A stretch of DNA of 54,784 nucleotides, from assembly GCA_002792535.1 (NCBI GenBank), contig PFOM01000009.1, positions 1-54,784 of the forward strand. Direction: 5' to 3'. The notes under the pieces are model-generated. The model saw only the letters and a program-made list of their open reading frames with translations. It did not search any database and was not told the DNA's origin. The stretch comes from Candidatus Peregrinibacteria bacterium CG_4_10_14_0_2_um_filter_38_24 (GTDB lineage: Bacteria; Patescibacteriota; Gracilibacteria; UBA1369; LOWO2-01-FULL-3). The position numbers and the translations under genes are program-made. This document shows positions 29,126-39,763 of this stretch, one piece after another (positions within the stretch are counted from its first letter, which is position 1; each line of letters opens with the position of its first letter).

Positions 29126-30290
29126 CAGTTTTCTCCTCACCTTTGTGAAGAACCTTCATCTCTACACTGTCCCCGACATTCTTTTTTGCGATAAAATTCG
29201 GCAATGAAACATTGTCATCGAGTTTTACTCCGTCCACTTCAAGAATAATATCGTTTTCTGTGATGCCAGCTTTATCCGCAGGGGATCCAGGTACGACCGC
29301 AAGTTCTTCAGGCTTTTCTCCGCGCAAAACCAGAACGCCATAATCAACAGATAAACTGTTCGTCTCTTTAATAGCTTTTGTTATAGGGATAAATCTTATC
29401 CCAAGGAAAGGACGAACTATTTTTCCGGTTTTTTGCACAGAATCAAAAATACTTTTTACAGTATTTGCAGGAAGAGAAAATCCTATGTTTTCCGCACTGG
29501 CAACAGCCACATTCACTCCAATTATATTTCCATGGATATCAAGAAGTGGTCCACCGGAATTCCCTGGATTTATAGCCGCATCGGTTTGTATTACTCCTTC
29601 AAGTTTTTCAGACATTCCACGTCCGTCTCCTGCGGTAATTTTCCTTGAAAGCCCTGAAACAACTCCGACAGAAACAGAATTTTTGAATTCAAGAAGAGGG
29701 CTTCCAATAGCGATTGCAGTCTGTCCGACTTGTAAAATATCGCTATCCGCAAAACTCAAAAATGGAAGACCTTTCTCTTCGATTTTTATCACAGCAATAT
29801 CATTTAAAGGATCTCTCGCAATAACTTTTGCATCATATTTCGTTGCTGCATCATTCATAATGACAGTATATTCAGCAGTTTCATCTGAAACTACATGCCT
29901 GTTTGTGATTATATATCCATCCTCTGAGACGATAAATCCGCTTCCTCCGCCAACTTCCTTCTTCTCGGTGCCATTTTGTCTGTATTGAGGTATTTGGAAG
30001 TTGAGAGGACTGCTCTCCCCGAAAGGATTCGAAAAATATTTTTCAAGAATCGGCACATCCTTGCTGATAACGATAGAAACCGTAGAATCCTTAGCTTTTT
30101 TTACGGTATCTATTATGAGCTGTTCTTGTGAGGTAACATTTTGAACAACACTTTTAGAATTAACGTCACTATTTGCAGGGGAATATTGCGCAGACGGGGA
30201 TAGTCCGACAAAAGATCCTACAATAATAAGCGCGGTAACTCCACCGGAAACCGCTCCAGTAAGGACTACTTTCGCATAATTTTTCTCCAT
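29091..30290 (-). CDS. HtrA/DegP-like trypsin-type serine protease with PDZ domain
   Basis: GSGFIVSEDGYIITNRHVV, NDIAVIKI, TDAAINPGNSGGPLLD; PDZ; start at MEKNYAK. Confidence 0.95.
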   Translation of the reverse strand: MEKNYAKVVLTGAVSGGVTALIIVGSFVGLSPSAQYSPANSDVNSKSVVQNVTSQEQLIIDTVKKAKDSTVSIVISKDVPILEKYFSNPFGESSPLNFQIPQYRQNGTEKKEVGGGSGFIVSEDGYIITNRHVVSDETAEYTVIMNDAATKYDAKVIARDPLNDIAVIKIEEKGLPFLSFADSDILQVGQTAIAIGSPLLEFKNSVSVGVVSGLSRKITAGDGRGMSEKLEGVIQTDAAINPGNSGGPLLDIHGNIIGVNVAVASAENIGFSLPANTVKSIFDSVQKTGKIVRPFLGIRFIPITKAIKETNSLSVDYGVLVLRGEKPEELAVVPGSPADKAGITENDIILEVDGVKLDDNVSLPNFIAKKNVGDSVEMKVLHKGEEKTVTVKLEEKSDK

Positions 30291-37977: not shown

Positions 37978-38052
37978 GCCGGAGTAGCTCATTGGTAGAG
38001 CAGTGGATTGAAAATCCATGTGTAGGCAGTCCGATTCTGCCCTTCGGCACCA
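37978..38052 (+). tRNA. tRNA-Phe (anticodon GAA at 38010-38012), CCA encoded
   Basis: GCCGGAG-TA-GCTC-ATTGGTA-GAGC-A-GTGGA-TTGAAAA-TCCAT-GTGTA-GGCAG-TCCGATT-CTGCC-CTTCGGC-A-CCA cloverleaf. Confidence 0.95.
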
Positions 38053-38058
38053 CTTCCA

Positions 38059-38331
38059 TCAATAAACTTCATCATGCGAACCAATATCAACCGGGACGAT
38101 TTGATCGTCTTTGATTATGAAATAAATAATCAGTCGATAGGAGATGGTGACGGAAACGCTAAATAACTCGGCTAATCTTCCTGATAATTTATGCATTCTC
38201 AAAGAAGGATGTTGAGGATTTATGCAAAGTATTTTTAAAATTTTCTCGTATTGTTCTAATATTTTCGGATGTTTTTCGAAAAATTTCTTTGCTCTTTTTT
38301 GATAACTTTCAGTAATGACTAATTTATACAT
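38059..38331 (-). CDS. RelE/YafQ-family toxin
   Basis: SYQKRAKKFFEKHP...MHKLSGRLAELFSVSVTISYRLIIYFI...VDIGSHDEVY. Confidence 0.9.
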   Translation of the reverse strand: MYKLVITESYQKRAKKFFEKHPKILEQYEKILKILCINPQHPSLRMHKLSGRLAELFSVSVTISYRLIIYFIIKDDQIVPVDIGSHDEVY

Positions 38332-38581
38332 TCTTCAAATCTTTTATATGCTTCTCAACACTTTTTACTTTAAACTTCCCCTTAGCCAAATCCGCTTCGG
38401 ATTCTTTTAAAGCGGCATCCAGCTCACATTCACGCAGATAATTGTATTGATCCATGGTAAGTACGGCAAAACTTTTTTCACCATGAATCGTTATGAAAGT
38501 TTCGCTGAATTTTTTGGCTCTTTCGTTAAGAGCTGACATGCCTTTGGTCTTTAGTTCCTGAGCAGTTACGATATTATTCAT
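38324..38581 (-). CDS. Phd/RelB-like antitoxin
   Basis: MNNIVTAQELKTKGMSALNERAKKFSETFITIHGEKSFAVLTMDQYNYLRE; overlaps toxin. Confidence 0.85.
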   Translation of the reverse strand: MNNIVTAQELKTKGMSALNERAKKFSETFITIHGEKSFAVLTMDQYNYLRECELDAALKESEADLAKGKFKVKSVEKHIKDLKNV

Positions 38582-38850: not shown

Positions 38851-38891
38851 AAAAAAGACCCTCGAGGCTATTAAGTTCAAGAGTCCTTTTT
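38851..38891 (-). terminator. Intrinsic terminator of candidate ncRNA
   Basis: Minus strand AAAAAGGACUCUUGA-loop-UCGAGGGUCUUUUUU; G-U pairs only on this strand. Confidence 0.8.
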
Positions 38892-39029
38892 CGGATGGTA
38901 CCCAATGAATGGCGGTGAAGCCTATCAAAAGAATACCGGAGAGCTGATTTCCTTCTAAATAACTTGCATTATAAGAAGGGATCAGTGGGGCAATTAAAAT
39001 ATAAAACTTACGTTCCATATCCCAATTGC
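38851..39029 (-). ncRNA. Candidate structured small RNA (~179 nt)
   Basis: Promoter TTGTAT-N17-TATTAT with predicted start at hairpin 1; 18-bp hairpin with GUAA loop; hairpin 2 with GCAA loop; hairpin 3; terminator hairpin with U6 tail. Confidence 0.75.
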
Positions 39030-39035
39030 AAGTAT

Positions 39036-39064
39036 ATAATAACATATTTTTAGAAAAAATACAA
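39036..39064 (-). promoter_or_regulatory. Promoter of candidate ncRNA
   Basis: Minus strand TTGTAT-N17-TATTAT. Confidence 0.65.
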
Positions 39065-39121: not shown

Positions 39122-39493
39122 ATGGAAATAACTTTCTTTCACAAGAACCTCACGAAGGCCGAAGAAAGCTCTTTCGTTGAGTACGTGGAAACAAAACGGG
39201 AGATGATAACAAATCTTCTGAAAACGTTTCCGGAGAATGCTACGCTCATGAGAGCAAACATCGAGAAATTCGAGAAGCATGACGCTTATGAGGTGGAATT
39301 GGCGGTAATAATGCCGACAAAACAAGTTGTGGCAAAAGAGGCAAGCCACATGATAACGAAAGCGGTGGATCTTGCAAAAGACAGGTTAGTTTCTCAGATA
39401 AAGAAACATATCGCTTTAATGAGAAGAGAACGAAAGCACAAGTCTGTAAGGGAAAGAAAGGAGGTTGGAATAAAAGAAGAAGTCTTGTTCTAA
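39122..39493 (+). CDS. Ribosome hibernation factor HPF/RaiA-like protein
   Basis: MEITFFHKNLT..., NIEKFEKHDAYEVELAVIMP, basic C-terminal HIALMRRERKHK. Confidence 0.8.
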   Translation: MEITFFHKNLTKAEESSFVEYVETKREMITNLLKTFPENATLMRANIEKFEKHDAYEVELAVIMPTKQVVAKEASHMITKAVDLAKDRLVSQIKKHIALMRRERKHKSVRERKEVGIKEEVLF

Positions 39494-39550: not shown

Positions 39551-39763
39551 TTACTTAGCAGCTTCTTCAGCTGGAGCTTCTACAGCTGGAGCTTCTACAG
39601 CTGGAGCTTCTACAGCTGGAGTTTCTACAGCTTTTTCTGGTTCAACAACAGTTGTTGCTGGAGCTTCTGTTTCTTCTGTTGCAGGAGCTGTTATAGCAGC
39701 ACATCCAACTAGAGAAAGCATAGCAACCAAAGCTAGAGATAGTACAATCTTCTTCATAGCCAT
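39551..39763 (-). CDS. Small lipoprotein with AVEAP tandem repeats
   Basis: Lipobox LSLVGC; PAVEAPAVEAPAVEAPAEEAAK tail. Confidence 0.85.
   Translation of the reverse strand: MAMKKIVLSLALVAMLSLVGCAAITAPATEETEAPATTVVEPEKAVETPAVEAPAVEAPAVEAPAEEAAK
39571..39630. repeat. 15-bp tandem repeat, ~4 copies (CTGGAGCTTCTACAG)
   Basis: Three identical plus one near-identical unit inside lipoprotein gene. Confidence 0.9.

Follow-up and report, generated by a model that had tools for sequence, protein, structure and literature searches.

A structured small RNA in a Candidatus Peregrinibacteria family and its putative complementary partner RNA

The window, by which we mean the whole stretch of 54,784 nucleotides analysed here, belongs to a Candidatus Peregrinibacteria genome (G000). 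On its minus strand, positions 38851-39029 hold a structured small RNA that extends from a predicted start to the U-run of a terminator and is marked by a fold z-score of -6.8 and by homologues within the family. The divergent neighbour is a gene of the HPF/RaiA type (39122-39493, plus strand; PF02482, E 1.8e-5). Between HPF and the next gene is a small lipoprotein-like open reading frame with VEAPA repeats (39551-39763, minus strand), and a small gene near HPF in G010 (locus L053) resembles it. A YafQ-type toxin gene (PF15738) with a small antitoxin-like gene upstream lies at 38059-38581 (minus strand), adjoined by a tRNA at 37978-38049.

Folding of the minus strand from 39035 to 38845 gave four separate hairpins at a minimum free energy of -66.8 kcal/mol, with the minimum free energy structure identical to the centroid. 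Shuffled versions of the same stretch averaged -38.6 kcal/mol (s.d. 4.2), so that the z-score is -6.77, and 0 of 200 reached the energy of the real fold. In this predicted fold, with all features on the minus strand, hairpin 1 (38990-39029) has 18 base pairs, five of them G-U, and a GUAA loop, while hairpin 2 (38944-38985) has a GCAA loop; both are variable modules. The linker CUCUCC (38938-38943) is single-stranded and is kept in relatives. Hairpin 3 (38897-38937), the core hairpin, is closed by GGUAUUC/GGGUACC and is supported by covariation and by a match to the core model R2 at 38895-38944. An intrinsic terminator hairpin with U6 (38851-38891) completes the RNA. A first-pass annotation had described the same four hairpins, and the exact coordinates, the G-U count and the GNRA loops were all recovered here.

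The promoter-like elements named in that annotation, TTGTAT-N17-TATTAT followed after 6 nt by a G at 39029, are present exactly where it placed them. The -10 hexamer TATTAT (39036-39041, minus strand) lies 17 nt from the -35-like hexamer TTGTAT (39059-39064, minus strand), which is weak, with 3/6 matches to TTGACA, and the site is absent from the output of a promoter scan of the window. A TATTAT-like -10 element at similar spacing from the start recurs in most relatives. Since the -35 element is weak, the promoter claim draws on the -10 hexamer and on its recurrence, from which we infer that the window RNA may be transcribed from the predicted start.

An undescribed structured noncoding RNA had been proposed at this position, with a 70-amino-acid open reading frame as the competing explanation. 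That frame begins upstream of the predicted RNA start, is truncated in the nearest relatives and has no conserved counterpart in other genera, and no conserved open reading frame was found in the RNA across relatives. Rfam covariance models matched only a tRNA in the window and nothing in 13 related loci, 6S, tmRNA, SRP and RNase P included, in agreement with the earlier failure to recognise these classes. A weak match to ctRNA_p42d (26 bits against a cut-off of 50) covers the terminator only and was rejected as an identity. Similarity to the raiA motif had been raised as well; RF03072 was unmatched both at the gathering score and at E<=10, and similarity of the window RNA to the raiA motif is not supported. 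With no Rfam match, compensatory changes in relatives and no conserved reading frame, the reading of the window element as an undescribed, noncoding structured RNA is supported.

Relatives were sought by a DNA search and then through the HPF loci of 30 genomes from the same GTDB-level family, and comparison of these loci revealed, in several genera, related RNAs that are oriented divergently from HPF. The covariance model R1, built from seven of these RNAs, matched 17 of the 30 genomes at the family threshold of E<=1; one of these, G010, was weak with R1 (E 0.26) and clear with R2 (1.6e-6). The other 13 genomes gave no RNA match, though HPF was found in 28 of the 30. Outside the family no convincing match was found: R1 at E<=0.01 matched none of 60 other genomes of the order, and exact-pattern matches in other phyla were about as frequent as expected by chance. 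Two matches outside the family, in G090 and G356, had E values of 0.006-0.01 per genome, which is the chance level for 384 genomes, and lacked the architecture. One family member, G022, carries two tandem, diverged copies of the RNA on contig C121 (L046, L054), each with promoter-like sequence and a terminator. As a separate observation, the window genome has on the minus strand of contig C25, at about 34298 (L100), a hairpin GGUAUUCUGAAGUUCGCUUUAGAAUACC in a stretch with no long open frames, possibly another structured RNA.

The RNA lies within about 700 nt of HPF in 13 of the 17 genomes. Eight are divergent from it (G000, G002, G003, G012, G013, G019, G023 and G027) and five are a few hundred bases downstream on the same strand (G010, G015, G024, G028 and G029); the other four (G004, G005, G021 and G022) are elsewhere. 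The stationary-phase or ribosome-linked role suggested earlier has only HPF proximity behind it, and it has to be set against these four genomes and against the 13 family genomes with no RNA match; the observed link between RNA and HPF is positional only. We also considered that the RNA might act as a leader or attenuator for whatever gene follows its terminator, or that it might be the terminator region belonging to a small coding gene. A small membrane-protein gene does follow the terminator in several genomes, but the downstream gene varies, the window has none there and only a toxin-antitoxin-like pair further on, the same membrane-protein gene stands beside HPF in RNA-less genomes, and there is no conserved reading frame; we give this explanation almost no credence.

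Across the family the number of 5' hairpins varies, and what stays constant is the pyrimidine linker CYCUCC together with hairpin 3 and the terminator. G003 lacks hairpin 1, which is enlarged in genus g13, and G019 lacks hairpin 2. Hairpin 3 occurs twice in G013 and in G023, and G004, G005 and G010 have additional hairpins, which often carry UUCG loops and small, symmetric internal loops. Such series of similar hairpins, variable in number and with the same kind of internal loop, could point to a protein- or ribosome-binding scaffold, as could the nearness of HPF, in either of two arrangements, in 13 of 17 genomes. The function of such a scaffold would lie in the hairpin series, perhaps in combination with HPF, and any partner would only tune it. 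However, conservation is lowest in the 5' hairpins, some of which are dispensable (G003, G019), the RNA is remote from HPF in four genomes, and no conserved pairing with 16S rRNA was seen, and we regard a scaffold as distinctly unlikely.

Collection of homologues and a covariation analysis, both suggested as checks in the first-pass annotation, showed that hairpin 3 covaries strongly. In a hand alignment of 18 cores, with one hairpin base of G047/L047 omitted, 89% of cells pair, and two-sided changes occupy 24 cells against 8.2 in shuffles; the covariation score is 0.354, compared with at most 0.137 for slid partners. The two arms are kept differently. The 5' arm, GRUAUYCNUUYGA, is kept in sequence, whereas in the 3' arm it is mostly the pairing that persists, which suggests a second partner for the 5' strand. 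The linker is single-stranded in the predicted folds of the window RNA and of most other RNAs examined, in a survey that read the wrong stretch in G005, G013, G015 and G024 and in which the G022 fold pairs part of the linker.

A candidate for this second partner lies near a YtxH-like gene, which was found in 26 of the 30 family genomes. R2 gave weaker matches antisense to the sequences that precede this gene, where RNA-bearing genomes show, immediately ahead of an intrinsic terminator, sequences like AUCGAAAGAAUAUUGGAGGG. As comparison with relatives shows, the predicted pairing core of the window RNA, GCUCUCCGGUAUUCUUUUGAU (38924-38944, minus strand), made up of the linker and the 5' arm of hairpin 3, is complementary to this site over about 20 nt. 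The site falls between the stop codon of an SLH-type gene and the terminator in nine genomes (G000, G003, G004, G005, G015, G019, G021, G024 and G029), the SLH assignment in G021 and G029 being by sequence resemblance only; in G029 it is 1.07 kb further upstream, in the 3' region of the SLH gene. Four genomes (G012, G013, G022 and G027) have the site with no preceding SLH gene and with promoter-like hexamers directly upstream, and here it is apparently a short separate transcript of about 55 nt. The predicted core-site duplex has energies of -19 to -32 kcal/mol and z-scores of -2.7 to -8.4 in 11 genomes, and the net cofold gain ranges from -4.4 (G000) to -21.5 kcal/mol. The window genome's own site, outside the window on contig C3 at about 29500-29525, is partly decayed (-15.2 kcal/mol, z -0.4), so pairing there may be weak or lost; the site of G028 is partial or degraded.

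The position of the site between SLH stop codon and terminator in nine genomes could mean that the small RNA mainly regulates the mRNA of the SLH (S-layer-type) protein through its 3'UTR, for instance its stability near the terminator, and that the stand-alone sites are remnants from which the SLH gene has moved away. The four genomes with no SLH gene ahead of the site nonetheless combine strong pairing with promoter-like hexamers, and we consider this account unlikely.

Of the RNA-bearing genomes that could be evaluated, 12 of 14 have a strong site, compared with 0 of 10 RNA-less genomes (Fisher p 6.7e-5); G002, G010 and G023 were outside the evaluable set, as YtxH was not found or lay too near a contig end. 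These genomes are related, and the starred branches of a combined HPF+YtxH tree provide only two independent contrasts, too few for significance, neither of which contradicts the co-occurrence of RNA and site. The 10 RNA-less genomes have no comparable site upstream of YtxH, the z-score of -2.6 in G008 lying inside a GC-rich terminator only. Since five of the ten (G001, G008, G014, G020 and G025) retain the SLH-YtxH gene order, what is absent is the site and not the locus.

Core and site also change together. In a duplex alignment made by hand, with three bulged site bases of G019 omitted, 224 of 250 cells pair (21 positions, 12 genomes). Matched core-site pairs scored 158 against a mean of 147 when partners were swapped (p=0.001, one genome per genus). 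Among 11 distinct pairs, two-sided changes occupied 12 cells, compared with 4.2 in shuffles, and none of 500 shuffles reached this count; the shuffles ignore relatedness, and the swap test and a slid-partner control (at most 3 such cells) agree with them. Lineage-specific changes in the core are matched in the site: the g1 core GCUCUCC is accompanied by the site GGAGAGC in G003, the G005 core CCCUUC by GAAGGG and the g13 core CCCUCUGA by UUAGAGGG. The complementarity is trans-encoded and conserved, as in sponge or antisense RNAs, and the predicted pairing of core and partner is well supported by this comparative evidence. Both elements are short, and complementarity would arise in one step if the core had once been copied in inverted orientation, so that the pairing might be the functionless by-product of such an old copy. 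That matched pairs beat swapped ones, that two-sided changes exceed those in every shuffle and that the site is missing at the same place in RNA-less genomes all argue against a by-product, which we hold to be highly improbable.

Pattern searches of the family genomes revealed no second conserved target site. A 16-mer search that allowed two mismatches returned numerous scattered matches, in RNA-bearing and RNA-less genomes alike, and exact 12-mers outside the YtxH/SLH region were also scattered, many within open frames; neither was retained. Two 16S rRNA targets were discarded. The core approximates the complement of the E. coli h23 sequence GAAUACCGG, but these genomes read GAACACCAAAAGCG at that position. 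The 16S sequence AAUACCGGAUGG complements CCGGUAUU, while the g13 cores, with CUGAUAUU, mismatch it and the g13 16S is unchanged. The 16S match on contig C23 of the window genome (1779-3385) spans about 1607 bases, compared with 1465-1500 in several relatives, which suggests an insertion, and 16S matches are fragmented in G002 and others.

The C-rich core might instead have served as an anti-Shine-Dalgarno mimic or Shine-Dalgarno-blocking seed. Shine-Dalgarno-like motifs precede 0 of 47 window genes, against 4.9 expected by chance, and the 3' tail of 16S rRNA reads GGAUGGAAUAUCUCUUUU in the window genus (G000 L076, G001 L075) and GGAUGGAUCACCUCCUUU in relatives. Because of the missing motifs and the altered tail, blocking of Shine-Dalgarno sequences, the usual mode of small RNA action, is unlikely here, and Shine-Dalgarno-independent initiation seems likely in the window genus. 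In a separate survey of leaders across the family, the 40 nt upstream of the start codon contained TTAAC in 19 of 28 HPF genes (L009-L036) and TTAAC, ATAAC or TAACC in 26 of 26 YtxH-like genes (L142-L167); none of these YtxH-like genes had a Shine-Dalgarno-like motif.

Collectively, we think it probable that the window RNA belongs to a family of noncoding, trans-acting small RNAs that work with a dedicated complementary antisense or sponge partner RNA. Comparison of genomes shows the structure, the RNA family and the complementarity with its co-evolution, while we infer transcription, strand invasion, the direction of control and the outcome. The 5' hairpins are variable modules, and the working part would be the CYCUCC linker with the 5' arm of hairpin 3. 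The partner RNA would nucleate on the unpaired linker, the likely first contact, and then invade the strand, displacing the 3' arm of hairpin 3 to form a duplex of about 20 bp. The 3'UTR of the SLH-protein mRNA, or the stand-alone RNA of about 55 nt, would thereby set the amount of free small RNA. If sponges that derive from 3'UTRs or stand alone (PMC9438474, PMC12559287) are a guide, the outcome would most likely be mutual sequestration or decay. A bolder version of this scheme is a two-RNA switch, in which a modular hairpin RNA that binds a protein or the ribosome is turned off by a dedicated partner that a surface-protein mRNA releases. Such a switch would couple ribosome hibernation to the expression of the cell surface in one Peregrinibacteria family of bacteria apparently lacking Shine-Dalgarno initiation; we offer it as an improbable speculation.

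Both members of the putative RNA-RNA pair were obtained from sequence alone, and their interaction is backed at the level of single bases by compensating changes. None of the papers in the collection searched names both Peregrinibacteria and small RNA, and RNA-RNA regulation in candidate phyla now becomes directly testable.

The RNA can be compared with several known systems. In RNAs of the CsrB type the terminator is preceded by a row of hairpins whose number varies, as in the present RNA family, but the recurrent GGA loop motif of CsrB was not seen here and the conserved part is instead a base-pairing core. Type I antitoxin RNAs such as istR-1 are short, trans-encoded and able to pair over about 20 nt with a longer, structured RNA, and the putative partner RNA shares these properties; in contrast to type I toxin-antitoxin systems, the longer RNA here encodes no conserved small (hydrophobic) protein, the 70-amino-acid frame not being kept. 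The raiA motif (ModT, RF03072), which takes its name from the adjacent raiA, an HPF-type gene, is likewise structured and about 200 nt long. It has been described with two pseudoknots and eight paired regions and occurs in Bacillota and Actinomycetota (PMC11706538). The window RNA is patescibacterial, is a simple row of hairpins in its predicted fold and is incompletely associated with HPF. Parallels to the proposed pair are SroC, a 3'UTR-derived sponge that acts on the small RNA GcvB (reviewed in PMC9438474), and CrfA, a sponge RNA that acts on SisA-D (PMC12559287). There too a noncoding RNA is matched, through a complementary stretch, by a second RNA that derives from an mRNA 3' end or from a separate gene. 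The SroC and CrfA pairs were established by experiment and are Hfq-dependent, while the Peregrinibacteria pair is known through sequence comparison alone, and the Peregrinibacteria small RNA differs from those of both systems in its chain of hairpins and its conserved linker-hairpin core.
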